37,933 bases of DNA from a virus, in IMG/VR virus record IMGVR_UViG_3300049825_000986, positions 1 to 37,933 of that record; one strand, 5' to 3'. Shown here piece after piece: positions 16,339 to 37,053 of the stretch. Each line of letters starts with the position of its first letter. Within the stretch, counting starts at the first letter, position 1. Both the position numbers and the translations under genes were made by a program. The notes under the pieces are model-generated. The model ran no database searches. It was not told the origin of the DNA and saw only the letters and a list, made by a program, of their open reading frames with translations.

Positions 16339-17742
16339 ATGTCTGATTTAAAATTTAGCCAAATGGCTGGAGTTGGAGCTATAACTGGTAATGAACTACT
16401 ACCATTGGTACAATCTGGAGGGAATGTTAAGGCAAATTTAAACCAATTAAAAAGATGGGCTTCCACACTTGGAAACCCATCTGCTATTTACAATGGCGCA
16501 TTGCCACCAAATGATTTTTTCGGGTGGGCTGAATTTTCTGGATACCATACTCTTGTCGGTAAAACCATTAGCCTGGGCTCAAATTCTTTTCCGCAATTAG
16601 ACCAAAATAGTGCTATTTATCCTATAAATCCTTTAAACTCTTTAGCTTGTGATTATGAACTAGAGTTAATTTTCAAAGCTTTTAATGGGCTGAAGTTAGG
16701 ATTAGGCACTATAGGAAATCAAGCACTTAGCCCTGTTAGTAGCGTAGGTTATGCAACATTTTCAACAACACCTGCAACGAGTGGTATAATTTTGGATAAT
16801 AGCATAATTGGAAGTGATTACGATAACACCTCATTAGGCTTCAACTATCAAGATGGCGATCTTTGTAAATTAACTTACAGGCAAGACAACGAAAAGTATG
16901 TAGTTGTTTTAGAAAATTTAATTAATAATACAAAGGTAGAAATTGGTGAAATTAATCCTTATGGTGATTTCACTATAACACAAGATTTTCAAAGCACTAG
17001 TGGTCAAGTATGTATAAGCCACTGTTCTGGACAATTTGAAATATTAAGCTTTAATTATGTAGAATTATTCACATCAAGCATTTGCTTTGTGGGAAATTCT
17101 ATTACAGAAGGTTATGGAAGTGGTACAAGTAACGATTTCATTCAGCAATTGGAATCTATATATGGAATAAAGTTTAAAAAGTATGCTAAAGCAGGTGTCA
17201 CTTCTACAGAAATTAAGAATAACTTAAGGCATATAATTGCGGGCAATTTTAACACAGTAGTATTAAATGGCATCTATTACAATGATGGCTTTGCTGGTAT
17301 ATCAATAGCTCAAACAAAAGCAAATATTACATCCATAATAACAAGCTTAAAAGCAGCAAATACTAAAGTAATTTTATGCACCACGCCATACAATGCATAT
17401 GCAAGTAATCACAATACAATTAGAGATTGGATGATTGCCACTTACAGTACACTTCCAATGATTAGGATAGATTTAGCAATTAATAGTACAAATTTTACAA
17501 CTTTAACAGCGGATGGGGCACACCCTAATACGGATGGGTATTATGAGATTGCAAGTTTGTTTGTTATTTATTTTGACAACAACCCTTTTGTACATCAATA
17601 TGAATACGGCAATATTGTTTATAATAAAGACATTACACAAATTCCTGTTGGTATGTGGCAGGTTTTAAAAAATTTACCCGATGGAAAAGTTTTTATTGCA
17701 GCAAATGATGCTGGAGTAATTAAAAAAGTTGAGTTATTGTAA
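16339..17742 (+). CDS. Tail fibre / spike with SGNH (GDSL-like) hydrolase domain
   Basis: 467 residues. The N-terminus (SDLKFSQMAGVGAITGNELL, then LPLVQSGGN) is a virion-attachment motif seen at the start of many phage fibres. Residues ~80-240 form a beta-rich carbohydrate-binding-like domain. From ~245 an SGNH hydrolase follows: CFVGNSITEG with nucleophile S254, N315 in YYND, and the D392-GA-H395 pair of block V. Such enzymes remove acetyl or similar ester groups from surface polysaccharides, so this protein probably binds and modifies the host capsule or O-antigen during adsorption. It lies between the tail protein and the lysis genes. The last ~40 residues form a short Lys/Ile-rich tail. 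Confidence 0.75.
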   Translation: MSDLKFSQMAGVGAITGNELLPLVQSGGNVKANLNQLKRWASTLGNPSAIYNGALPPNDFFGWAEFSGYHTLVGKTISLGSNSFPQLDQNSAIYPINPLNSLACDYELELIFKAFNGLKLGLGTIGNQALSPVSSVGYATFSTTPATSGIILDNSIIGSDYDNTSLGFNYQDGDLCKLTYRQDNEKYVVVLENLINNTKVEIGEINPYGDFTITQDFQSTSGQVCISHCSGQFEILSFNYVELFTSSICFVGNSITEGYGSGTSNDFIQQLESIYGIKFKKYAKAGVTSTEIKNNLRHIIAGNFNTVVLNGIYYNDGFAGISIAQTKANITSIITSLKAANTKVILCTTPYNAYASNHNTIRDWMIATYSTLPMIRIDLAINSTNFTTLTADGAHPNTDGYYEIASLFVIYFDNNPFVHQYEYGNIVYNKDITQIPVGMWQVLKNLPDGKVFIAANDAGVIKKVELL

Positions 17743-20013: not shown

Positions 20014-20050
20014 TACATTTGTGTGGGTAATTTGTGTGGGAATGTGGGAA
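20014..20050 (+). promoter_or_regulatory. Direct repeats and -7 box upstream of the integrase
   Basis: TTTGTGTGGG occurs at 20018-20027 and again at 20031-20040, followed by a shorter copy TGTGGGAA at 20043-20050 (13- and ~12-nt spacing, near one helical turn). Such repeats are candidates for integrase arm-binding sites. TACATTTG (20014-20021) matches the Bacteroidota -7 box, but the region 20 nt upstream (GTTC) is a poor -33 box, so the promoter call is weak. Overlap of the two would allow integrase to regulate itself. Confidence 0.45.
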
Positions 20051-20066
20051 TTTTAAAAACTTTATT

Positions 20067-21176
20067 ATGGTAAATATTTTGATTGAATTAGACCGAAAAG
20101 CCGACAAGAATAACCTACAAAAGGTATTTATTAGAATAACGGAAAATAAAAAAAGTAAGTATATTGGGCTGCCCATTAAGGTTCATAAATCGCAATTCGA
20201 TAAAGGAAAAATTATTAAGCATCCATTGTCTTATGATTATAATAAACTAATTGAACTACGTGTACTAGAATTGCAACAAGTTTCCATTAAAGCCGAATTG
20301 GACAATAAAAAAAATGTATTAGACATATTGAGTGGAAAAGCGGAAAAGCAACTTATTTTTAATTTATTTGCAGTAGAAGTGCTACGACGATTGGATGCTG
20401 GAAAAAAATTGAGTACTGTTAAAACTTGGGCTAGTCAACTTAATCAAATTAACCTCGACTTTCCAGGATTAAAGCTGCAAGAAATTACAACGGATTGGTT
20501 GTACAATTATGAATTGCGGTTGCGAAAAAAAGGCTTGATTAACGGCGGGATTAGAAAACGAATGCAATTCATAGCCAAAATTATAAATGAAGCAGAACGG
20601 CAGGAACTACTAAGAATTTCACCTTTTAAAGTATATCGTAAACCAACGGAGCAACCAGCACAAAAACAATGGCTAACCCACGAAGAGTTAAAGGTAATTA
20701 TTGACTTGTCAAATGATGACAATTTTAGTAAATTACACTTAGTGGCTAACTGGTTTATCTTTTGTTGCTATACTGGTTTGCGCTATAGCGACATTGAAAA
20801 CTTTGATTATAATAAATCTATTAATGAGGGCAGAATTATCTTATATACGCAAAAAACTGGCGAAGTGGTAAGCATTAAAATTAACGATCGGTTAAAAAAT
20901 ATATTGGAAAAAGTTTGTCCAAACGGAATAGCTATGAAAGTAATTACCAATCAAAAAGGTAATGAACACCTTAAGGCCATTGCAGCACATTGTGGTATAA
21001 ATAAGCCGTTGAGTTGGCACGTTGCTAGGCATACTTTTGCAACACATTGTAGTATAGCTGGTATAGCACAGGAAGTAACGCAAAAATTACTTGGCCACAG
21101 TAATATTAAAACTACTGCCATTTATTATAAAATCGTAAATACTAGAATAGATAGCGAAATTGATAAACTAGGGTAG
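20067..21176 (+). CDS. int: Tyrosine recombinase / phage integrase
   Basis: 369 residues from ATG 20067; the longer frame from GTG 20034 runs into the upstream repeats. Domains: N-terminal arm-binding domain (~1-90), SAM-like core-binding domain (~100-185, TVKTWASQLNQ), catalytic domain (~200-360). All catalytic residues are visible: R239 in YTGLRYSD, Lys in YTQKTGE, H318 and R321 in HVARHTF, H344 in LLGHSN, and Tyr at 353 in AIYYK. It should integrate and excise the phage at the tmRNA-end site about 150 nt upstream. Its stop overlaps the convergent HTH gene by 9 nt. Confidence 0.95.
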   Translation: MVNILIELDRKADKNNLQKVFIRITENKKSKYIGLPIKVHKSQFDKGKIIKHPLSYDYNKLIELRVLELQQVSIKAELDNKKNVLDILSGKAEKQLIFNLFAVEVLRRLDAGKKLSTVKTWASQLNQINLDFPGLKLQEITTDWLYNYELRLRKKGLINGGIRKRMQFIAKIINEAERQELLRISPFKVYRKPTEQPAQKQWLTHEELKVIIDLSNDDNFSKLHLVANWFIFCCYTGLRYSDIENFDYNKSINEGRIILYTQKTGEVVSIKINDRLKNILEKVCPNGIAMKVITNQKGNEHLKAIAAHCGINKPLSWHVARHTFATHCSIAGIAQEVTQKLLGHSNIKTTAIYYKIVNTRIDSEIDKLG

Positions 21177-22129: not shown

Positions 22130-22597
22130 CTAAACTTTTTGTTTCTTTGAAAGTTCGGAAAAAAGCCTGTCAACTTCCGTATTCACTTCTTTTGAAAATT
22201 CGGAAATCTCTGCAACTAAAGAAGTTCCAAAAACTTTAGCCCTAACTTCGGCATCTTTAATATCACGAACATTAGCCCTAGCCATTAACTGGGTTAATTG
22301 CTCTTGCATAGTACTAATCTGCTTATTAATATCTACTTCTATAGTAAGCACCTCGTCTTTTTTGTACCCATATTTTACATCCTTTTCATTAACCACATTA
22401 GTCATTTGGTCTTCAAGTGGAACATTTTCCCTAATAAATATTTGTAATTTTTCAAAATCCTCTGCTTTTGGGACTATATTTCTCTGCTCCCATTTAGCTA
22501 GCCTATCTTTTGGAACACCTAATTTTTCCGCAAATTGCTGTTGACTTAATCCCCTTGAAAGCCTTATCTGTTTTATATTTAATCCATTTATTAACAT
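22130..22597 (-). CDS. Phage repressor, HTH_3 family without peptidase domain
   Basis: 155 residues. Residues ~5-60 form a Cro/C1-type HTH (INGLNIKQIRLSRGLSQQQF, then AEKLGVPKDRLAKWEQ). The rest is a helical, charged region (QISTMQEQLTQLMARAN) that can dimerise as a coiled coil. There is no S24/LexA-type peptidase domain (no Ser-Lys dyad region and too short), so RecA-driven self-cleavage is not expected and induction must follow another path. It is divergent from the early operon, with a shared control region of ~95 nt that holds an operator palindrome. Confidence 0.75.
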   Translation of the reverse strand: MLINGLNIKQIRLSRGLSQQQFAEKLGVPKDRLAKWEQRNIVPKAEDFEKLQIFIRENVPLEDQMTNVVNEKDVKYGYKKDEVLTIEVDINKQISTMQEQLTQLMARANVRDIKDAEVRAKVFGTSLVAEISEFSKEVNTEVDRLFSELSKKQKV

Positions 22598-27189: not shown

Positions 27190-28827
27190 ATGATTGATAT
27201 AGTAGAACATAATGGTGGTTATAAAGTAAGCTTTCAGTATAAGCCTTACTTAGTAAGTGCTATTAAGCAAATACCTGGAGCAAAGTTCAATGGTGGTGAT
27301 AAAACTTGGAACATTCCGATTGAAAGCGGAAATGCCTTAATTAATTGGAGTAAAAGTTTTCAAACTACATATAAAAAAACTACTATCGAAGTTGGTGAAA
27401 TAGACCCATTACCAAATCTATCTATTGAAATTCCTTTATTAAGAGAATTGTTCCCGTATCAAAAAACTGGTGTTGCTTATGCATTGCATAAAAAGAAAGT
27501 AATAGTAGGCGATCAGCCAGGACTTGGTAAAACTGGCCAAGCCATTGCAACAAGTATAGGAGCAGCTGCAAAATGCATATTGGTTATTTGCCCGGCAACC
27601 ATTAGAGAAAACTGGAAAAGAGAATTTAAAATATGGGCTGGCAAAGATGTTATGATATTGAATGATAGAGTTAAAAATACTTGGCACACCTTTTACAACG
27701 TAGGAATTTGTAATGTATTTATTTGCAATTATGAAAGTTTGAAAAAATATTTTGTAAAGGAAATAAACAAACCTGCGGATAAGCCATTAAGAATCAATCA
27801 TATTGTTTTTAAAGAATCTATCAATTTATTTGATATGGTAATTGTGGATGAAGTGCACCGCTGCAAGGATGGTAAAACACAACAAGCAAAATTTGTAATG
27901 GGTATTGCTAAAGGTAAGGAGTATATACTGGCTCTTACTGGAACACCAGTAGTAAACAAGCCAATTGATTTAATTCCGCAATTGCATATACTTGGAAAGC
28001 TTGATGTATTTGGCGGTTATAAAGGATTTGTAGATAGATACTGCCAAGGATTTAACCAAGCAAGTAACTTAAAAGAATTGAATTATTTGTTGCACAAAAA
28101 TTGTTTTTACCGTCGTGAAAAAACAGAGGTTTTAAAAGACTTGCCCGACAAAATGAGAAACATTTATAGGTGTGATATTACCAACAGAACAGAATACCAA
28201 TTTGCCGAAAATAAGTTTAGGGAGTTCTTAGAAAGTAAAGGGGTAGATTCCATACAAATTGATAAGAGCCTAAGAGCAGAAGCATTGGTACAAATGATGC
28301 TACTTAAAAAATTAAGCGCTATTGGCAAAGTAAATGAGGTAGTAGAACAAATACGAGAGGTTATAGAAGCTGGCGAAAAAATTGTATTGTTTGCTTGGCA
28401 TAAAGAAATTGTGTTAGCACTCAAAGCAGCTATTCCTGAAGCAGTTACCATTATAGGTGAAGATACAATGGACCAAAGGCAAAGGGCTGTAGATAGTTTT
28501 CAAAACGACCCAAAAGTGCAAGTAATTATTTGCAATATAAAAAGTGGCGGTGTAGGAATTACACTTACTGCATCTTCAAGGGTTGCATTCATTGAATTGC
28601 CTTGGCATCCTGCAGATTGCGAACAGTGTGAAGACAGGTGCCATAGGATAGGGCAAAAAGATAGTGTACAAATTACTTACTTTCTAGGACATAATACCGT
28701 TGACGAATATATATATGGAATTATTGATAAAAAAAGAGCAATAGTTAATCAGGTAACTGGTGCAGAAGATACTATAGAAACGAATGTAGTGGATGAATTT
28801 ATAAATCTATTTATGACTAAAAAATAA
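27190..28827 (+). CDS. SNF2-family helicase with HARP-like N-terminus
   Basis: 545 residues. Residues 1-60 (KVSFQYKPYLVSAIKQIPG, then AKFNGGDKTWNIPI) look like a HARP annealing-helicase domain, as in SMARCAL1. The two RecA-like lobes follow: Walker A GDQPGLGKTGQA, motif II VDEVHR, motif III ALTGTPVVN, motif V KSGGVGITLTAS, motif VI HRIGQ. All ATPase motifs are intact. Such enzymes rewind or remodel DNA at forks; in a phage it probably helps replication restart or recombination. 5 nt after the upstream gene. Confidence 0.9.
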   Translation: MIDIVEHNGGYKVSFQYKPYLVSAIKQIPGAKFNGGDKTWNIPIESGNALINWSKSFQTTYKKTTIEVGEIDPLPNLSIEIPLLRELFPYQKTGVAYALHKKKVIVGDQPGLGKTGQAIATSIGAAAKCILVICPATIRENWKREFKIWAGKDVMILNDRVKNTWHTFYNVGICNVFICNYESLKKYFVKEINKPADKPLRINHIVFKESINLFDMVIVDEVHRCKDGKTQQAKFVMGIAKGKEYILALTGTPVVNKPIDLIPQLHILGKLDVFGGYKGFVDRYCQGFNQASNLKELNYLLHKNCFYRREKTEVLKDLPDKMRNIYRCDITNRTEYQFAENKFREFLESKGVDSIQIDKSLRAEALVQMMLLKKLSAIGKVNEVVEQIREVIEAGEKIVLFAWHKEIVLALKAAIPEAVTIIGEDTMDQRQRAVDSFQNDPKVQVIICNIKSGGVGITLTASSRVAFIELPWHPADCEQCEDRCHRIGQKDSVQITYFLGHNTVDEYIYGIIDKKRAIVNQVTGAEDTIETNVVDEFINLFMTKK

Positions 28828-28835
28828 AATTAAAA

Positions 28836-29924
28836 ATGAACAAAATTATTGTAACAAGCGATGCCTTAAAAAAGTCGTTGAAAAGACTTGGTAATGCTAT
28901 ACACCCAAAACCAACTATTGCTATTTTAGATAGCATACTAATACAAACTAAAGTAAATAGTATGCGAATGATTGCTACCGATTTAGAAATTTCTATTTAC
29001 GAAAATTGTGAATGCCAATGCGATGCAGAATTTAGTTTTTTAATTCCTTTTGGATTTTTAAGCAAAGTGGTAGGCTTAAGCAAAGGAATGCCTTTAGAAA
29101 TTGAAGTTGGTGAAAAAGCAATTAAACTTGCTGCTGGCAGTGATACTTATGAAATTAAAGGAATAGTTTCCGTAGAAACTTTTCCAACATTGCAGCCGAT
29201 AGCAACTGAAAACGGCTGCGAAATTGATGCTGCTTTCATATATTATTTGAAAGCAGCACAAACTACCATAAATACTGGTGGTGACGTAAATAATAAAGTA
29301 ACTAAGGTTTTAATAGAAGTAAAAAAATCGGCCACAACTATAGCTAGTACTGACGGGCTTTACTGTGTGTTTAGTTACAAAGTAGAAAATGCCTTAGAAA
29401 ACGAAAGCAATTTATTATTGCCAGATAAAGCTATTAAAGCATTAGATGGATTGGATAAAGTGAATATAGGCTGGGATGATAAAACATTTTCTTTTCAAAG
29501 TGAAAATACAACTATTGTTGTAACTCGTCCAACATACTCATTTGTAGATTTTAGGAAAATTTTCCCATTAGATTGGCCAAGCAATTTAATAGTTGATAGA
29601 GAAATATTAATAGCCGCTTTAGAAAAGTGTTGCATTAATAGCGACCCTTATAAATTAACAACACTGGATTTAAGCAAACCAAAATCGGTTGTAATGGTTT
29701 CTAAAGATAAGGATTATAACATAAACATTCAAGCCAATCTAAATACTACCTATTCAGGATCAGTAAAAAAAGTAAGTTTTAATGCCGAAAAGATGTTAAA
29801 ACTTATGCATCAAATAAAAATGCCTACAGTTGAATTAGCTATCAATGATGAAACACGACCCATTGTATTTAGGTCCCCAGAAGATAAAAACTACGAAGCT
29901 TTATTAATGACTATAAAAAACTAA
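28836..29924 (+). CDS. dnaN: DNA polymerase III beta subunit (sliding clamp)
   Basis: 362 residues, the normal length of a bacterial clamp. Three repeated clamp-like domains can be followed: opening TSDALKKSLKRLGNAI, SILIQTKVNSMRMIATDLEI, then FLIPFGFLSKVVGL, and the end DETRPIVFRSPEDKNYEALL, which matches the clamp C-terminal pattern. It would tether the replicative polymerase; with host polymerase III it could favour phage DNA. No polymerase gene is present in the window. 8 nt after the helicase gene. Confidence 0.88.
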   Translation: MNKIIVTSDALKKSLKRLGNAIHPKPTIAILDSILIQTKVNSMRMIATDLEISIYENCECQCDAEFSFLIPFGFLSKVVGLSKGMPLEIEVGEKAIKLAAGSDTYEIKGIVSVETFPTLQPIATENGCEIDAAFIYYLKAAQTTINTGGDVNNKVTKVLIEVKKSATTIASTDGLYCVFSYKVENALENESNLLLPDKAIKALDGLDKVNIGWDDKTFSFQSENTTIVVTRPTYSFVDFRKIFPLDWPSNLIVDREILIAALEKCCINSDPYKLTTLDLSKPKSVVMVSKDKDYNINIQANLNTTYSGSVKKVSFNAEKMLKLMHQIKMPTVELAINDETRPIVFRSPEDKNYEALLMTIKN

Positions 29925-29928
29925 ATAA

Positions 29929-31290
29929 ATGACTACACAAGAAATTTTACAAAAATGCGCCATTCAAGGAAAACTAGTAAAACTACCAGATGTGCAACTA
30001 GATAGAAAAGATTATTTGGAAGTAAAAAAAGCACTAGAATTAATTGGTGGTAAATGGAAGGGCGGTAAAACTATGGGATTTTTATTTGAAACGCATCCTA
30101 CAGCATTGTTAAAAAAACTTTGCGAAGGAGAAAAAGTAAATCTTAAAAAAGAGTTTCAATTTTTTGCTACTCCAGCAGCATTAGCCGATAAGATGTGTGA
30201 GAAATTATCTAAACGGTTAAATGATGGGTATAAAATACTAGAACCTAGTGCAGGCGATGGTGCACTTGTAAAAGCTATTCAACGTTATTATGGATTTAGT
30301 GTTGAAGTAGATTGTTTTGAAAAGATGGAATTAAACTATATGAAGTTAGCTAAATTGGAAGGCGTTCATTTTGTCGGAGATGATTTTTTATTGGCTGATG
30401 ATGACGTTAATAATAATTACGATATTATTATTGCAAATCCACCTTTTAGTAAAAATCAAGATATTTTACATATCTGTAAAATGTATAATTGCCTAAGGCC
30501 CGGAGGTATTTTAGTAACACTTTCTAGTTGTAGTTGGGAAAATGATTCCCAAAAAATAAGAAAAGAGTTCACTACATTTTTAAGTGATATAGATGCTTAT
30601 GTTGAACATGTAGAAGAGGGAACTTTTAAAGAAAGTGGAACTATGGTGCCAACCAAGTTATTAACCATAGTAAAGCCAATAAGAGACGTGCTAGTGCCTG
30701 AATTAATTGCAAAAAAATTAGAAGATTATAGTACAGAACTAGGAGCTATTAATAATAACGAGCTGAACGATTCTGATGGTGGTGATTTTCTTGATATGAT
30801 GCTACTGAATGTTAAAAATGACGTTAGCAAGGCCCAAGCAAAAATTAGTGAATTTGAAACAGAATTAAATGAAAGTATACCAATTAGTGAATTTCCGGGC
30901 TGTAGTTTTTTCTGTTATCTATACGAAAATCTGATTGGCGTAGATGTAACAATAAACATCAAAAGAATTGGAGAAAGCCTAAAAGTAGCAGTACTCCCAA
31001 ATATTGTAAAAGGAATAAAACCAGTTGTATTAGAAGGAAATTTTTTAGAGCTCGACGAAGGATTTTTAGAAGCAATTTATTTGCCACTAAAAGAAGCAAC
31101 TGGCCTTAAAGTAGAATTAAGCGACTATAAAAAAAGTATAGAAGCTGCCAAAAAAGATAATGTGGAAGATAGTGGTGGGGATGATGATAAAGAAGTAAAG
31201 AAGGCTTTTGAAAAATCGTTTAAAAAACTAGACAAGAAAAAAAGTAAAGCGGTAAAAAAATTACCAACACCAATGTTTGAAGATCAATAA
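29929..31290 (+). CDS. DNA adenine methyltransferase (N6), orphan
   Basis: 453 residues. An N-terminal 75-residue segment is followed by the SAM-binding motif ILEPSAGDGALVKAI and the catalytic motif IV NPPF in IIIANPPFSKNQDI, a pattern of N6-adenine methyltransferases. The C-terminal third is an extension (~280-453) ending in a Lys/Asp-rich tail (SGGDDDKEVKKAF). No restriction partner lies nearby, so it is probably an orphan enzyme that protects phage DNA or regulates it. It directly precedes the PRTRC genes. Confidence 0.8.
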   Translation: MTTQEILQKCAIQGKLVKLPDVQLDRKDYLEVKKALELIGGKWKGGKTMGFLFETHPTALLKKLCEGEKVNLKKEFQFFATPAALADKMCEKLSKRLNDGYKILEPSAGDGALVKAIQRYYGFSVEVDCFEKMELNYMKLAKLEGVHFVGDDFLLADDDVNNNYDIIIANPPFSKNQDILHICKMYNCLRPGGILVTLSSCSWENDSQKIRKEFTTFLSDIDAYVEHVEEGTFKESGTMVPTKLLTIVKPIRDVLVPELIAKKLEDYSTELGAINNNELNDSDGGDFLDMMLLNVKNDVSKAQAKISEFETELNESIPISEFPGCSFFCYLYENLIGVDVTINIKRIGESLKVAVLPNIVKGIKPVVLEGNFLELDEGFLEAIYLPLKEATGLKVELSDYKKSIEAAKKDNVEDSGGDDDKEVKKAFEKSFKKLDKKKSKAVKKLPTPMFEDQ

Positions 31291-31301
31291 AAAAATAAAT
31301 T

Positions 31302-31523
31302 ATGGCATTACAAACCGAAAGCCTTAAAAGGCAATTCAAATTCAAAAAAAGTGGTAATTGGATTACATTAGAAGATCCTAATATTGCCTATACTCCAGAA
31401 GAAGTGTTAGTACACTATAGTGTACAATATCCAGAGTTGACTACAGCAACTTTAGACGAGCCGAAAATAGATGGTAATAAAGCAATTTATGAAATTACCA
31501 CTACTGTAGGCGATAAAGGGTAA
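31302..31523 (+). CDS. PRTRC system protein C, ubiquitin-like protein
   Basis: 73 residues. QFKFKKSGNWITLEDPNI, then YTPEEVLVHYSVQYPELTTA and a final strand pair ending TTTVGDKG fit PRTRC protein C (the prokaryotic ubiquitin-like family). The beta-grasp-like order of strands and one helix is visible, and the protein ends in Gly, as needed for adenylation by an E1. It opens the cassette that also holds E2-like and E1-like genes, so it is the probable protein tag or sulfur carrier. The name rests on recognised family pattern, not on a search. Confidence 0.8.
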   Translation: MALQTESLKRQFKFKKSGNWITLEDPNIAYTPEEVLVHYSVQYPELTTATLDEPKIDGNKAIYEITTTVGDKG

Positions 31524-31527
31524 TAAT

Positions 31528-31707
31528 ATGGAAAAAGTTAAAAAACCAAAATGTCACAAATTTTCAATACAAGAACTACACAAAAATCTAGGCGTAATAT
31601 TCCTAGAAGAGTTGCCCGAAAGGGACCAGGATGCGGCAGAAATAATAATGGAAACAAAGGAGCGGGTACAGCTGCTACCACCGTTGCAAATTCCATATTT
31701 AGACTAA
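31528..31707 (+). CDS. 59-residue frame overlapping the start of the PRTRC large protein
   Basis: Starts MEKVKKPKCHKFSIQELHKN, 4 nt after protein C, and ends LLPPLQIPYLD. Its composition (Glu/Leu/Ile/Lys-rich) looks like a genuine protein of this phage, while the overlapping frame of the next entry reads Arg/Gly/Asn/Thr-rich here, as wrong frames do. It is therefore either a separate small gene or the true N-terminus of the large protein, joined by a frameshift or separated by a sequence error near 31700. Confidence 0.5.
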   Translation: MEKVKKPKCHKFSIQELHKNLGVIFLEELPERDQDAAEIIMETKERVQLLPPLQIPYLD

Positions 31708-32738
31708 GATTAAAGTCTATACCTGGTGTAGTATGTAAGGAAAAACAATTGGGGAAAAATTTGGATAAGGAGCATAATTATGAGGTAATGTATGCCTATT
31801 TATTTAGTTGCTTTCAAAAGGCATTAGAGCTTTTGAAAAAAGAAAAATCATCCTTTAATCCCTATCATAATGGAATGAGCTTAAGCCAGTCGTTATACTA
31901 TATAACCAATGCTTTTAAAAATAATATAGTTCCTGAAGGCTTTGAATTAGATGTAAACTATAATGAGGATAATGGCTACTATTTTACTATTTGGAAGGAT
32001 GTTGCGTTTAATGAATTTTGGCACTATATAAATGTAAACGATGTGTATTGCCAACTTGTAGAAAGCAAAGAAACGGTATTGCTTAATTGCTATATGAAGG
32101 CAATAAAAATATTGACAAATTTAGGATTTAATACGTGGTGGTATGGTGGTATGATGGCTTACGAATACTTACTCGAAGATCAAATAAGTATTGAAGATTA
32201 TTTGGAAAACACTTATGAGGATGATGTGGAAGGAAAGGAATTAAAGAGAAAAGAAATTGAAGGGATAAAAGACTATTATACTAGTGGATTGCCCTATAAG
32301 TTTAGGAAGCGGTTGGAAAAAACTACGGGAAGAGGTGTTGCAGCATATAAAAATTGTTTAGAAAAACTAGATAGTAATAACCCTTTAGTTAGGTGGATGC
32401 TTTTAGTTGTGGATTTAATAAATTATAACCAACACATAGATAATTACAATTATGAAGAGGGAATGGAAGAATATAGCGACGATGGATATTTAAGATTAGA
32501 TAATATGTTTAGCATAATATGGTCTGACCGTGATATTGTGTTTGATACATCAGTAGAATGGATGGATTCGGAAGCTACCAGTTTAGGAACACAACCAGCA
32601 GTTATTAACTACTCGGTTAAAAAAAGTTGTAAAGAAATACCAATTGAAAAGTTAATAAAAAGCTTGGATTGGTTACAAAAGATAAATATTGTATTCCACA
32701 GATACCAAGACGCTTTGAAACTTATATTAAAAGATTAA
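31551..32738 (+). CDS. PRTRC-cassette large protein (possibly protein F); N-terminus uncertain
   Basis: Up to 395 residues. From about residue 54 (RLRLKSIPGVVCKEKQ) it reads as a coherent helical protein with many Tyr/Trp (FNTWWYGGMMAYEYLL; LVRWMLLVVDLINY). The first ~50 residues are unlike it and probably not translated; other in-frame starts are TTG 31749 and ATG 31788. Position between protein C and protein B suggests PRTRC system protein F, but I cannot confirm the family. The end abuts the E2-like gene with a 4-nt gap. Any biochemical role is unknown. Confidence 0.6.
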   Translation: MSQIFNTRTTQKSRRNIPRRVARKGPGCGRNNNGNKGAGTAATTVANSIFRLRLKSIPGVVCKEKQLGKNLDKEHNYEVMYAYLFSCFQKALELLKKEKSSFNPYHNGMSLSQSLYYITNAFKNNIVPEGFELDVNYNEDNGYYFTIWKDVAFNEFWHYINVNDVYCQLVESKETVLLNCYMKAIKILTNLGFNTWWYGGMMAYEYLLEDQISIEDYLENTYEDDVEGKELKRKEIEGIKDYYTSGLPYKFRKRLEKTTGRGVAAYKNCLEKLDSNNPLVRWMLLVVDLINYNQHIDNYNYEEGMEEYSDDGYLRLDNMFSIIWSDRDIVFDTSVEWMDSEATSLGTQPAVINYSVKKSCKEIPIEKLIKSLDWLQKINIVFHRYQDALKLILKD

Positions 32739-32742
32739 AACA

Positions 32743-33462
32743 ATGAATGAACTAACACATAATTTAATTACTGATTATAAACCGAAAGTTTTAATTACTG
32801 TGTATTATGGCTCTAGCGATGACTTTTACTTGGAAAGTCACCTTGTAAAAGAGGACGGAAGTATAGCTGCTGGCCGTCCATTACAGCAAGAAACGATACA
32901 AAAAATGGTAGACACTTTTTTAATAAAAGATACTAAGGAGCGGCAAATAACAGGACTAATGCCGGGCAACTTATTATATTATAAAAACTTACCTGGCGGC
33001 AGGTATAAGATGATATGGCATAGGCCAATGGAGCAAAGAGTATTACATCACGCTAGTGAGTTGAAAATACCTACTGGAAAAGCTATGGTACCGCCATTAT
33101 TATATGTAGTTAGCGAAAAGAAATTAAGCTTGTTTGCTCTTTCTAGTAATGATAGGCCCAATGAAGTAACTAAACTATATGAAGCGCCTTTCTTCAATAT
33201 ATATGATAGTGGTGGGGTATGCCTTGGTAATGCAAAAGTTAAGCAGCCGTTGAATAATTACGCTAGTATAATGCGGTATTGGGAAGATTTATTTTGGTTG
33301 AGCAATTTTACTCATATAAACGGTAAGGAAAAACTAAAGGTGGATATGAAGCAATACTGGACCAATGCGATTAAGTTAAAAAGAAAAAATGCCTTTTCCT
33401 TAGGAAATTTAATTACTATAAAAAACAAAAACTTAAAAACAATAATTAATGAACGAAAGTAA
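32743..33462 (+). CDS. PRTRC system protein B, E2-like ubiquitin-conjugating fold
   Basis: 239 residues. An N-terminal domain with GSIAAGRPLQQETIQKMV is followed by PPLLYVVSEKKLSLFAL and PFFNIYDSGGVCLGNAKV. The latter resembles the active-site stretch of ubiquitin E2 enzymes (Asn-Ile-Tyr, loop, x-V-Cys-Leu), which makes C160 the likely thioester cysteine. This is the pattern of the PRTRC-B / prokaryotic E2 group. It would accept the ubiquitin-like protein from the E1-like neighbour. It overlaps that gene by 14 nt. Confidence 0.8.
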   Translation: MNELTHNLITDYKPKVLITVYYGSSDDFYLESHLVKEDGSIAAGRPLQQETIQKMVDTFLIKDTKERQITGLMPGNLLYYKNLPGGRYKMIWHRPMEQRVLHHASELKIPTGKAMVPPLLYVVSEKKLSLFALSSNDRPNEVTKLYEAPFFNIYDSGGVCLGNAKVKQPLNNYASIMRYWEDLFWLSNFTHINGKEKLKVDMKQYWTNAIKLKRKNAFSLGNLITIKNKNLKTIINERK

Positions 33463-34216
33463 GATACATTATGGTCCTAAATATTTTATAAATCCAGCGC
33501 ATAGAATAACGATAGACTTGGTTGGGCTTGGCGGTACTGGAAGTAGAGTGCTTAATGAGTTGGCCAGAATGAATGCTGCTTTACTAGGATTAGGCAAACC
33601 TGGGTTATTTGTTAGGTGTTGGGATGCAGATATTGTAGAAGAAGCTAATGTAGGTCGTGGCACATTCAGTGCTGCAGATATTGGAGAATATAAAGCTAAC
33701 ATACTTGTAACTAGGGTTAATCGTCATTTTGGTACAGATTGGGATAGTAATTTAATGAACTACAAAGGCAATAAGGCGAGTAATATTTTGATAACCTGTG
33801 TAGACACGATAAAGGCTAGAGTAAGTATAGGAAGTACAATAGAAAAAAAACAAGGAAAAGTTGATCCGTTTGACCAGTTATATTATTGGTTAGATTTTGG
33901 TAACCTACAAAAAACTGGTCAAGTAATTCTTGGTACCAACGGCAATATAAATCAGCCAAAAATTAAAGGTGTAAAAGGGAGATTAAAAAATGTTATTGCT
34001 ACTTTCCCTCACCTCAAAAAAGTAAAGAAAGAAAGTAATGCGCCCAGCTGTAGTATGGCGGAAGCTTTGGATAAACAGGATTTATTTATTAATGGAATTT
34101 TAGCACAGTTTGGGTGTCATTTAATTTGGCAACTTCTAAAGGTCGGTTATATAAAAAATCGTGGTGCTTATGTTAATTTAGAAAATCTGATTGTAAACCC
34201 TATAAAAATAAAATAA
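33449..34216 (+). CDS. PRTRC system ThiF-family E1-like adenylating enzyme
   Basis: 255 residues. Rossmann motif GLGGTGS (26-32), acidic D59 and D61, R70 in NVGRGTF and K82 in DIGEYKA, and D119 in TCVDT are the ATP-binding and adenylation residues of the ThiF/MoeB/E1 family. C201 in PSCSMAEALDKQDLFING is a candidate catalytic Cys conserved, to my memory, in PRTRC ThiF proteins. It should adenylate the C-terminal Gly of protein C. It is shorter than eukaryotic E1 enzymes, as usual for bacterial forms. Stop and next start overlap by 1 nt. Confidence 0.88.
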   Translation: MNESKIHYGPKYFINPAHRITIDLVGLGGTGSRVLNELARMNAALLGLGKPGLFVRCWDADIVEEANVGRGTFSAADIGEYKANILVTRVNRHFGTDWDSNLMNYKGNKASNILITCVDTIKARVSIGSTIEKKQGKVDPFDQLYYWLDFGNLQKTGQVILGTNGNINQPKIKGVKGRLKNVIATFPHLKKVKKESNAPSCSMAEALDKQDLFINGILAQFGCHLIWQLLKVGYIKNRGAYVNLENLIVNPIKIK

Positions 34217-34515
34217 TGGATTTAGCCTACAATATAGCAAATACACTTTTGAATGGTGGAACGATGGTTAAGAATGGGAAGTATGGCTATAGAATTAGAG
34301 ACCGTAATATTAACCCAGTAGAAAAAGTAAGTTCTAAATATGGGTATTATTTAAAACTATATGCACTAAAAGAGGATAAAAAGCAAAAAGGTGTGTATGT
34401 GGTTAGTTTACAAAAAGTGAGGAAATTAAGTGGACATACGGCGTTTAAAAAGTGTTATAAAAAACAATTAAAAAGCAAAAAAGATGGAATACCAACAGTT
34501 ATTACAACAATATAA
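34216..34515 (+). CDS. Basic hypothetical protein after the PRTRC genes (99 aa)
   Basis: Starts MDLAYNIANTLLNGGTMVKN; very Lys-rich, with strand-turn patterns (KYGYRIRDRNINP; GYYLKLYALKEDKKQKGVYV). It is coupled to the E1-like gene (TAATG) and overlaps the next gene by 32 nt. Basic charge suggests nucleic-acid binding or a target of conjugation. No JAMM protease motif, so it is not the JAB-type protein A found in some PRTRC cassettes. Confidence 0.5.
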   Translation: MDLAYNIANTLLNGGTMVKNGKYGYRIRDRNINPVEKVSSKYGYYLKLYALKEDKKQKGVYVVSLQKVRKLSGHTAFKKCYKKQLKSKKDGIPTVITTI

Positions 34516-34729
34516 TACCTTAGTTCAATACCATAATGAGCTAAAAAGCAAGGTTGTGGAATTAAGAAAAGCACAAAAGAAATATTACTCTATTAGTAAG
34601 AATGATTTTGCACAAAAGAATGAAGCTTTAGCAATTAGTAAGAGGTTGGAAAAGGAATTAGATTTTTTTTTAAATCCCCCAGTAATTGCACAACAAAATT
34701 TATTTAATAACGAATACTTAGGAAGATAA
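34484..34729 (+). CDS. Small coiled-coil protein (81 aa)
   Basis: Starts MEYQQLLQQYNTLVQYHNEL; nearly all helix with heptad spacing of Leu/Val/Tyr, ending in PPVIAQQNLFNNEYLGR. It overlaps the upstream gene by 32 nt and lies 4 nt before the initiator. It may be a partner of the replication initiator or helicase. The QQNLFN stretch near its end resembles a clamp-binding peptide (QxxLF), which would fit the phage clamp; this is speculative. Confidence 0.5.
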   Translation: MEYQQLLQQYNTLVQYHNELKSKVVELRKAQKKYYSISKNDFAQKNEALAISKRLEKELDFFLNPPVIAQQNLFNNEYLGR

Positions 34730-34733
34730 TAAT

Positions 34734-35543
34734 ATGGCAAGACCTATAAAAGAAGGGTTGGAATATTTTCCGCTGAATGTGGATTTTTTTGACGATGATA
34801 AAATACAATTGATTGACGCTGAATTTTATGAAAAAGGGTGCTTGATAGTAATAAAATTAATGTGTAAGATTTATAAAGAAAATGGCTACTATTACCAATG
34901 GGGTGATGATCAGTGTTTGCTATTCGCTAAGAGTGCAGGTACTGGTATTGGTCCAGGATTAGTAAAGGAAGTTATAGCTGGGTTGGTTAGGCGTTCGTTT
35001 TTTGACAAACGGGTGTATGACAGGTTCGGCATTTTAACTTCATTTGGGATTCAAAAAAGATATTTTGAAGCTACAAAAAAAAGGCAAAGCGTTACAGTTT
35101 TTGAAGAATTTTTAGTTAATGTAGACATTAACTCCATTAATGACAACATTAACTTAGTTAATTACTGCAATAATACACAAAGTAAAGTAAAGGAAAGTAA
35201 AGGAAAGGAAAGTAAAGGATTCACTCACACCGATGAAGAAATTTTAAAATTTACTGAATTTGAAATTTGGTTAAAAAAATATGCTCCTAGAGTACAGCAA
35301 ATGAAGCAGCCCTTAACTATTGAAGAATATTTTAAATTGAAAAAAGTATTAGATGGAAAAGTTATGAAAGATTTACTTTTTTCAATGCAAAATTATGTTC
35401 CACTCCACAAAAAAAGTTTATCTGCTTACCGAACAATTTTAAAGTGGAGTAAAAATAATTTCTCCAATAAAAAAAATGACGAATCTCCTAAAATGGAAGA
35501 TTCGGACCCAGAAACTCTTAAAAAACTAGGACTAAAAGAATAA
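34734..35543 (+). CDS. Replication initiator / helicase loader, DUF4373-like (Lin1244/Lin1753 type)
   Basis: 269 residues. The N-terminal winged-helix-like domain (YFPLNVDFFDDDKIQLIDAE, IVIKLMCKIYKENGYYYQW) is the Lin1244/Lin1753-type domain of phage replisome organisers. A flexible linker SKVKESKGKESKG (~150-163) is encoded by repetitive DNA, and a helical C-terminal domain (~170-255) follows, probably contacting the DnaB helicase encoded 1 nt downstream. As in lambda gene O, the repeats within the gene may be origin iterons. Confidence 0.75.
   Translation: MARPIKEGLEYFPLNVDFFDDDKIQLIDAEFYEKGCLIVIKLMCKIYKENGYYYQWGDDQCLLFAKSAGTGIGPGLVKEVIAGLVRRSFFDKRVYDRFGILTSFGIQKRYFEATKKRQSVTVFEEFLVNVDINSINDNINLVNYCNNTQSKVKESKGKESKGFTHTDEEILKFTEFEIWLKKYAPRVQQMKQPLTIEEYFKLKKVLDGKVMKDLLFSMQNYVPLHKKSLSAYRTILKWSKNNFSNKKNDESPKMEDSDPETLKKLGLKE
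35179..35218 (+). repeat. Iteron-like purine repeats inside the initiator gene
   Basis: A 40-nt purine-rich tract built from GTAAAG and GGAAA units (for example GTAAAGGAAAG twice, at 35187-35197 and 35197-35207) encodes the Ser/Lys/Glu linker of the initiator. Repeats of this kind at this place in initiator genes are candidates for initiator binding sites, and an origin is plausible here. Confidence 0.5.
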
Positions 35544-35544
35544 T

Positions 35545-37053
35545 ATGGACTTAACAAACTTAAATATCGATCGAAAAACAAGAAGAAAGCCAGTTGTTGA
35601 TTTTAATGCAATTCAATATGGCAAAGTTCCACCACAAGCAAGGGAAATGGAAGAAGCTGTGCTAGGTGCTATTATGCTCGAAAAAAATGCTTTGGATAAT
35701 GTAGTGGATTTTTTAAAAGCAGAATGTTTTTATGTAGATGCACACCAAAAAGTATATGAATCCATATTGAGGCTTAATGAAAAAAACCAACCAATTGATA
35801 TAAGAACTGTAGTAGAAGAGCTTAGGAAAAGCGAAGATTTAGAGGTTGTAGGTGGTGCCTATTATATAACCAAACTAACTAATACCGTTGTAAGCACTGC
35901 CAACTTAGAAGCACACGCCAGAATTGTATTACAAAAATTTATTCAGCGAGAAATAATTCGAACTTGTGGCGAAATTTTAACAGAGGCTTTTGAAGACAGG
36001 TCCGATGCCTTAGAGTTGCTTGACTATGCAGAAAAGCAAATATTGCAAATTGGGCAAAATAATGTGAAAGGCGACATGGTAGATATGAGTGCTGTTTTAA
36101 TTAATGCTTTAAAAAACATAGAAGAAAATAAAGCAAAAGGGAGTTTAATAACTGGTGTGCCTACTGGCTTTCCAAAGTTAGATAATGCAACCAGAGGTTG
36201 GCAGCCTGGCGATTTAATTATATTAGCTGCTAGGCCATCTGTAGGTAAAACAGCTATTGCACTCAACATAGCTAATGCAGCTGCTAATTATATTAAAAAC
36301 GATTTGCAGAATAAAGGCAGCGTTGCGGTTTTTAGCTTAGAAATGAAAAGTGTAGCGATTGGAATACGTTTGTTGAGTTCGGAAAGTAAAATTCCTATGG
36401 AAAAATTACAAACTGGTCAACTTACTGACGAAGAAATGCGACAACTAATGGTAAGGGGTTTTAATCAATTGGACAGCAGCAAATTGTTTTTTGACGACAG
36501 TAGTACGATTACTTTACGATCGCTTAGCAGCAAGTGTAGAAAATTAAAAAAGAAAATTGGCTTACAGCTTATAATAATCGATTACTTACAACTAATGAGT
36601 AGCGACAATAAGTTTGGTAATAGAGAGCAAGAAATTAGCACTATTAGTAGGGGATTAAAAAATTTAGCTCAAGAATTAAATGTGCCAATTATTGCCCTTT
36701 CCCAATTAAGTAGGGAAATTACAAAAAGTATGAGTTTTGAAGTGGGACCGCCAATAACTGCATTGAGAGAATCTGGAGCAATAGAACAGGATGCAGATAT
36801 GGTGTTAATGTTATGGGGTCCAACTGAAGAAGAAATTCTTAAAGACTCAACATTAATAAATAGAAGAAAGGCTAGAATTGTGAAGCAAAGAAACGGAAAA
36901 CTAAAATTAATTGAATTGGTTTTAGAAGGCGATATACAACTGTTTAAACAGTTGGAAGAAAATGAAAATTACGATGTTGCAAAAAGTAGTTGGAAAAAAA
37001 TAGAAAAAATAGAAAAAGTTAGTATAGAAAATGAAGAGGATATGCCTTTTTAA
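35545..37053 (+). CDS. dnaB: Replicative DNA helicase DnaB
   Basis: 502 residues. N-terminal domain (PPQAREMEEAVLGAIMLEKN), linker, and a RecA-like C-terminal domain with Walker A RPSVGKTAIA, Walker B LIIIDYLQLM, the arginine-rich LSREI segment and the ESGAIEQDADMVLML motif. All motifs of an active hexameric helicase are present and the length is normal. The end is acidic (ENEEDMPF). It begins 1 nt after the initiator gene, the usual loader-helicase pairing. Confidence 0.95.
   Translation: MDLTNLNIDRKTRRKPVVDFNAIQYGKVPPQAREMEEAVLGAIMLEKNALDNVVDFLKAECFYVDAHQKVYESILRLNEKNQPIDIRTVVEELRKSEDLEVVGGAYYITKLTNTVVSTANLEAHARIVLQKFIQREIIRTCGEILTEAFEDRSDALELLDYAEKQILQIGQNNVKGDMVDMSAVLINALKNIEENKAKGSLITGVPTGFPKLDNATRGWQPGDLIILAARPSVGKTAIALNIANAAANYIKNDLQNKGSVAVFSLEMKSVAIGIRLLSSESKIPMEKLQTGQLTDEEMRQLMVRGFNQLDSSKLFFDDSSTITLRSLSSKCRKLKKKIGLQLIIIDYLQLMSSDNKFGNREQEISTISRGLKNLAQELNVPIIALSQLSREITKSMSFEVGPPITALRESGAIEQDADMVLMLWGPTEEEILKDSTLINRRKARIVKQRNGKLKLIELVLEGDIQLFKQLEENENYDVAKSSWKKIEKIEKVSIENEEDMPF

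Follow-up and report, generated by a model that had tools for sequence, protein, structure and literature searches.

What does a ubiquitin-like conjugation cassette do among the replication genes of a phage? The question is raised by IMG/VR virus record IMGVR_UViG_3300049825_000986, a linear virus contig of 37,933 bases that we analysed at its full length (hereafter the window). Positions 29929–34216 of the window are a Bacteroidota-type PRTRC cassette made up of E, C, x, F, B and ThiF, and the gene order around it is DnaN, a methyltransferase (MTase)–E fusion, C, x, F, B, ThiF, two open reading frames (ORFs) of 99 and 81 residues, an initiator and DnaB. At a probability of roughly one half, we read this arrangement as a clamp-tethered ubiquitin-like conjugation cascade within a phage replication module. 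The evidence for this reading comes from the active sites of C, B and ThiF, from a motif in the tail of E, and from the genes that accompany the cassette in its relatives.

C, B and ThiF belong to PRTRC families and keep their active sites

The original prediction, made from the letters alone, had named a ubiquitin-like, an E2-like and an E1-like protein of the PRTRC families at this site. Pfam and NCBIfam matches bear this out, and an ORF check returned the same coordinates, lengths and residues for all three proteins. C scored 73.9 bits against Prok_Ub (PF14454, cut-off 25) and 51.9 against PRTRC_C (TIGR03738, cut-off 45.95), and its sequence as encoded ends in a free C-terminal glycine (VGDKG). 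B scored 113 bits against Prok-E2_D (PF14460, cut-off 25) and 116 bits against TIGR03737 (E 1.6e-33), under that model's cut-off of 131; it carries FNIYDSGGVCLG around a candidate catalytic cysteine, C160. ThiF has the GLGGTGS motif together with R70, K82, D119 and C201.

These residues are retained across the family (conservation was counted over aligned loci, some of them redundant). All 170 aligned ThiF sequences keep G26, G28, G29, G31, D59, R70, K82, D119 and C201, and N152, C160 and G162 of B are kept in 168/168 loci. C terminates in G-x-K-G in 152 of 154 loci and in alanine in the remaining two, with G70, K72 and G73 kept in 152–153 of the 154. The terminal alanine is confined to one contig, which carries both L002 and L037 (L numbers denote loci); there, C at L002:8682–8897 ends in GTKA.

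In B, N152 lies exactly eight residues ahead of C160, and a downstream histidine, His191, is nearly invariant. Eukaryotic E2s have the same spacing, with the asparagine of HPN eight residues ahead of the catalytic cysteine. A downstream histidine in E2-like proteins is also noted in the part of Iyer et al. 2006 that treats them (PMC1779556).

The AlphaFold (AF2) model of B is confident (predicted local distance difference test, pLDDT, 93.3), and all 50 of the 50 best PDB entries found for it with VIA-align are E2/UBC domains, at modest Z scores of 4.1–5.2. Three uncharacterised viral proteins in a library of viral structures match the same model at E below 0.001. In sequence searches of the PDB, the ThiF profile reached the eukaryotic E1s UBA6, UBA1, NEDD8 E1 and UBA5 and also Cap2 (best E 2e-8), the best match of B was UBE2L3 at E about 0.9, and C found no relatives. 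With C160 and R70 invariant, the genes still linked and the B model matching E2s, the identification of the cassette stands.

E tails of the family are enriched for a clamp-binding-like motif, and DnaN is the commonest identifiable gene 5' of E

The gene upstream of C had been described as a methyltransferase. It does encode one, and the prediction missed that residues 327–440 of the same protein are a PRTRC E domain (PF19556, 54.3 bits against a cut-off of 26). The fusion scored 32.3 bits against TIGR03741, under the cut-off of 37.95, and its syntenic homologue in L002 scored 65.7, over it. Its N-terminus is an N6-adenine-type MTase (NPPF), followed by the E domain and a basic tail that ends in KKLPTPMFEDQ. 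The same fusion is found in L012, L023, L039 and L095. The last of these (JAUYSP010000040.1) is a Bacteroidota-type cassette on a contig binned as a Legionellaceae metagenome-assembled genome and is possibly mis-binned.

The fused MTase bears on one alternative, in which C is a sulfur carrier resembling ThiS or MoaD and is thiocarboxylated by ThiF so that, jointly with the MTase, nucleotides or DNA can be modified. ThiF/C pairs elsewhere do carry sulfur, according to the relevant part of the 2006 study (PMC1779556). However, in nearly all loci the pair is accompanied by an E2-like protein whose Cys and Asn are invariant, only a few loci have the MTase, and the block showed neither a rhodanese nor a cysteine desulfurase. 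We consider a sulfur carrier very unlikely.

Throughout the family, the E domain is succeeded by a tail of low complexity. Of 91 dereplicated E tails, 68 contain the pattern [DSTNG][LMI]F, against 5.9 ± 2.3 (maximum 13) after shuffling, and 17 contain the stricter Q..[LM]F, against 0.9 expected. Clamp-like patterns were at or below expectation in the E domain itself and in the C-terminal 25 residues of C, F, B and ThiF. When no motif was fixed in advance, the tripeptide most enriched in the E tails was SLF (22 against 0.72, p = 4e-25); LFG and DLF came next, and glutamine was enriched four residues before the phenylalanine. Q-L-x-L-F near the C-terminus is the consensus of bacterial clamp binders (PMC4549789).

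DnaN is the commonest identifiable 5' neighbour of E in a Pfam scan, found in 18 of 92 dereplicated loci, with every other family at 2/92 or fewer. It lies directly 5' of E in 24 loci (gap −13 to 109 nt) and directly 3' of ThiF in L050 and L081; in L166 (Sphingobacterium mizutaii chromosome) it is inserted between C and F. Among E tails adjacent to DnaN, 17/20 carry [DSTNG][LMI]F, compared with 84 of the 332 remaining ORF ends of those loci. From motif and neighbourhood together, E is predicted to tether the cascade to the sliding clamp.

Alternatively, the tail might tether E to another replisome partner, as a mimic of the C-terminal tail of the single-stranded DNA-binding protein (SSB) or through some other hydrophobic groove, with no contact to DnaN. 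In phages whose cassette includes the JAB protein A (JAB-type), E ends exactly in acidic ..LDLF*, ..VDLY* or ..VDMY*, which are reminiscent of SSB tails. In Bacteroidota, however, residues usually follow the motif (SLFG...), a glutamine four before the phenylalanine is enriched, and DnaN is adjacent, all of which fits a clamp; a partner other than the clamp seems improbable to us.

C without a JAB gene ends at its glycine

The original prediction had noted that ParB-like and JAB members are missing, and neither ParB_N nor PF14464 (JAB/JAMM, PRTRC A) matched in the record, a linear contig that may be incomplete. Its description of the cassette as a reduced set is misleading, because E (fused) and an ORF in the place of F are both present and the JAB-less order E-C-x-F-B-ThiF is the usual form in Bacteroidota: JAB is absent from all 137 Bacteroidota-type loci tallied, and ParB adjoins E in only 2/92 dereplicated loci.

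Presence of JAB goes together with the end of C. In the JAB-less loci, window included, C stops at glycine in 137/137 (three apparent exceptions were artefacts of the regular expression). C carries a tail in 71 loci, in each of which a JAB (A) gene separates B from ThiF, and no locus (0) has a tailed C without JAB; 11 further loci have JAB and a C with three or fewer extra residues. In four JAB-positive phages (L210, L223, L226 and L273) the tail of C is x, fused behind GTKG, and in their close relatives L206, L211, L212 and L214, x is separate. The C–x fusions recall ubiquitin–ribosomal protein fusions. As a sequence pattern, all of this is consistent with a JAB that would cut behind GTKG and with a JAB-less C that would be born mature.

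ORF x overlaps F in a second reading frame

The three genes had been described as overlapping or lying within a few nucleotides of each other. This holds for B and ThiF, which overlap, and fails for C and B, which are separated by a 395-residue ORF. We refer to this ORF as F; it is conserved at this position in about 145 loci. F has no NCBIfam match, the PRTRC_F model (TIGR03742) included. In a profile–profile comparison it matched proteobacterial PRTRC F weakly (probability 73%, E 3e-5 over 68 columns), and a hidden Markov model (HMM) of Bacteroidota F reaches L010. Foldseek and VIA-align gave no credible match to its AF2 model (pLDDT 85.8), and its fold may still be a known one.

Also conserved, though unannotated, is the small ORF x that sits between C and F. 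The frame of F is −1 relative to x in 113/113 Bacteroidota-type loci. Over dereplicated loci, and with synonymous shuffles of x as the reference, the −1 frame is open from codon 16 of x to its stop in 66 of 67 loci against 8.8 ± 2.4, and the +1 frame is open across x in 5 loci against 9.2 expected. The ATG of F lies inside a cysteine codon of x in 45/59 loci, and it does so in the window. The best reading of these sequences is that x is dual-coded with a predicted basic, disordered N-terminus of F (31551–31707 in the F frame of the window). T-rich x ends in some loci raised the alternative of a programmed −1 frameshift that would lead from x into F. We preferred overlapping genes because the ATG of F is inside x and the window's clade has no T-rich stretch at the end of x. 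JAB-type phages have x and F one after the other, or a fusion of x to C.

The cassette recurs on plasmids, phages and chromosomes

Relatives were collected by tblastn with ThiF in plasmid and phage records and with alignment-based queries in IMG/VR, where scans with the single ThiF or B sequence of the window had found none or one locus; the C alignment was too variable for scanning contigs. ThiF relatives are present in 377 plasmid records and in 5 phage records, one of them full-length, in the isolated Burkholderia phage BgVeeders33 (OK665841). This phage has E, C, x, F, B, A and ThiF near DnaB, all unnamed in GenBank, and NCBIfam confirms E, F and A. Two alignment queries found relatives in 189 and 223 IMG/VR contigs (overlapping sets), and bacterial genomes contain more than 500 stretches with relatives. 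On the ThiF tree the nearest relatives of the window, L012–L023, form one group. The layout of L015 matches that of a chromosomal region in Flavihumibacter petaseus (L092).

As originally proposed, the site is a phage replication operon. Many phages carry the cassette beside the neighbours seen here. Of the 51 records tested in the first IMG/VR set, 24 yielded a terminase (TerL); among JAB-type records, two queries recovered one in 4/20 and 9/27, the 9/27 with a BgVeeders33-like terminase. Since recovery was incomplete, some IMG/VR records may not be phages.

These distributions also bear on whether the cassette is a degenerate passenger, captured by the phage from a plasmid or an integrative and conjugative element (ICE) and without present function. 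It has no known phenotype, and only 5 of 398 sampled Pseudomonadota genomes pass the PRTRC ThiF cut-off, so its occurrence is sporadic. Against this, the active sites are invariant across very diverged sequences, the order E-C-F-B-ThiF does not vary over about 170 loci, and the cassette recurs in phage lineages of two host phyla. A functionless passenger is barely plausible.

The element and the neighbouring genes

The record resembles a temperate tailed phage in that some of its proteins gave tape-measure, virion-structural and portal-like matches, and in that it encodes an integrase and a repressor (Table 1). A GDSL-lipase-like protein (16339–17742, plus strand) lies amid the structural and late genes. 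The 81-residue ORF after ThiF (34484–34729, plus strand) has QQNLF close to its C-terminus, a clamp-binding-like motif of its own.

Table 1 Features of the window
Feature	Coordinates	Strand	Basis or remark
Tyrosine integrase	20034–21176		
CI-type repressor	22130–22597	−	
SNF2-type helicase	27190–28827	+	Sequence, block conservation; upstream member of the phage replication block
DnaN (beta sliding clamp)	28836–29924	+	PF00712/PF02768, TIGR00663; directly 5' of the cassette
MTase–PRTRC E fusion, 453 aa	29929–31290	+	PF19556, E 1.8e-14
PRTRC C, ubiquitin-like beta-grasp, 73 aa	31302–31523	+	PF14454, E 8.7e-21; TIGR03738 above cut-off
x, 59-aa ORF without annotation	31528–31707	+	Iterated HMM match, E 1.3e-10 (small set)
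F, 395 aa, mostly helical	31551–32738	+	Occupies the PRTRC F position; has its own ATG
PRTRC B, E2-like	32743–33462	+	PF14460, E 1.6e-32
PRTRC ThiF, E1-like	33449–34216	+	TIGR03736, 227.2 bits, above cut-off (144.75)
Replication initiator / replisome organiser	34734–35543	+	PF14297, E 3.7e-27; phrog_2562, E 2.6e-58
DnaB replicative helicase	35545–37053	+	TIGR00665 above cut-off

The SNF2-type helicase is matched by the PADLOC defence models ZorD, DrmD and DpdE (best 8e-44), probably as a generic SNF2 homologue.

Defence models were also compared with the cassette itself, for which the original prediction had suggested an anti-defence role. In its fullest form, this alternative holds that C is put on host defence proteins, or on virion or replication proteins of competing phages, and that the operon site only sets early expression. 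The same machinery is carried by plasmids, ICEs and phages, as is typical of conflict genes, and Bil is an example of a bacterial E1/E2 system in anti-phage immunity. ThiF matches the PADLOC E1–E2 models weakly and generically (E 9e-6 over about 75 residues). Known bacterial E1/E2 systems serve anti-phage immunity (PMC10097602). However, C, F, B and A have no PADLOC model, a comparison with PADLOC and NCBIfam models of Bil and type II CBASS left C, F and B unmatched in PADLOC and gave 13 bits against 320 for NCBIfam 6A-MBL, the cassette is surrounded by replication genes and not by defence genes, and the clamp-like motif of E would be superfluous. Direct support for the suggested role was thus not found. 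Anti-defence is possible and, in our estimate, rather unlikely; the positive evidence, a clamp-like motif in E and an adjacent DnaN, points to DNA replication as the likelier setting.

Discussion

The clamp-tethered cascade that we infer, in which catalysis, clamp binding, the identity of the substrates and any roles of F and x are all conditional, would run as follows. ThiF would adenylate the exposed C-terminal glycine of C and form a thioester with it, probably at C201. C would then be passed to Cys160 of B, which, with the help of N152, would transfer it to lysines of target proteins. A maturation protease would be unnecessary, because C is encoded ending at glycine, and the cassette would hold nothing that reverses conjugation. 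E would serve as an adaptor, with a folded domain and a disordered tail whose QL[SD]LF-like motif, found in most family members, would be the tether to the clamp. That clamp would here probably be the phage's own DnaN, and host DnaN for elements without a DnaN gene. Likely targets would be proteins at the replication fork (the clamp, the polymerase and other replisome proteins, or host factors acting there). In the window phage, E would additionally carry a DNA methyltransferase, and if E binds the clamp, the fusion would be a clamp-tethered DNA methyltransferase.

Several observations weigh against this cascade. The E tail of the window has only PTPMF, a poor match to the motif that lacks both Q and S/D (its closest relative, L012, has EPDLF). 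Many motif-bearing E proteins have no DnaN gene nearby, DnaN adjacency may be a mere consequence of a shared replication operon, and the E tails of JAB-type phages could imitate SSB instead. A Foldseek search of the PDB with the B model gave no match at E below 0.001, and the VIA-align scores for B are modest, as given above. The relation between JAB and the tail of C, strong by locus count, is in effect one deep evolutionary split: on the ThiF tree JAB presence changes only about three times, which leaves one independent pair. The relation is consistent with maturation and is not statistical proof. Finally, we found no biochemistry of the PRTRC family in the literature consulted.

A broader proposal, which we advance tentatively, is that the cassette is a prokaryotic counterpart of PCNA-directed ubiquitin and SUMO signalling, in which an E-tethered E1–E2–Ubl (ubiquitin-like protein) cascade would mark clamp-bound replisome proteins and control replication of the element, with a mature Ubl used irreversibly in JAB-less phages. 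The likeness to eukaryotic Rad6 and Ubc9 acting on PCNA lies in the asparagine eight residues ahead of the E2 cysteine and in the proposed action at a sliding clamp. It is an analogy only: the window has no known E3, its target is putative, and a separate adaptor, E, would be the tether.

Among described systems, the closest is the PRTRC cassette itself (TIGR03735–TIGR03742; Prok_Ub, Prok-E2_D, PRTRC_E), which shares the ThiF, C, B and E families, the order E-C-F-B-(A)-ThiF and residence on mobile elements. The window differs in lying within a phage replication operon without ParB or JAB protein A, in the fusion of E to an MTase, in an F too diverged for the PRTRC_F model and in the extra ORF x. 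Ubiquitin-like bacterial operons were described in 2006 (PMC1779556), and the present type, 6d in that paper, bears the name PRTRC in TIGRFAMs. Within the portion of that paper by Iyer, Burroughs and Aravind concerning operon type 6d, this type is listed among mobile operons of unknown function, includes Bacteroides thetaiotaomicron, and combines a ubiquitin-like protein with a C-terminal glycine, an alpha-helical protein (corresponding to F), an E2-like protein with the downstream histidine and an E1-like protein; unlike the window, it has an adjacent JAB. The same portion discusses phages only for tail assembly genes and does not bring up E, x, the clamp motif or a link to DnaN (PMC1779556). 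Bil (type II BUB) and the Cap2/Cap3 pair of type II CBASS also rely on bacterial E1/E2-type chemistry, with a Ubl or a CD-NTase as the substrate, whereas in the window E1 and E2 are separate proteins, the E2 is of a different family (D), there is no JAB and no cGAS or effector, and the neighbours are phage replication genes. BgVeeders33 resembles the window in its E-C-x-F-B-A-ThiF order near DnaB and differs in encoding JAB protein A and in the tail that its C carries behind GTKGG; its ThiF is 36% identical to that of the window.

A search of the open-access literature (subscription papers and preprints lay outside it) found nothing linking PRTRC, phages and ubiquitin. Relative to the literature searched, the new elements are the presence of the cassette in a phage replication module, in phages of two host phyla; the MTase–E fusion; a JAB-less form with a C that would be born mature; the clamp-binding-like motif of E together with DnaN adjacency; and the putative dual coding of x and F.

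PRTRC is thereby placed in hundreds of phage contigs and in replication operons, and the motif in E makes its function concretely testable. BgVeeders33 offers a tractable isolated model that requires no metagenomic reconstruction. If the clamp-tethered cascade proves true, covalent tagging at the sliding clamp would be a logic common to eukaryotes and bacterial mobile elements.

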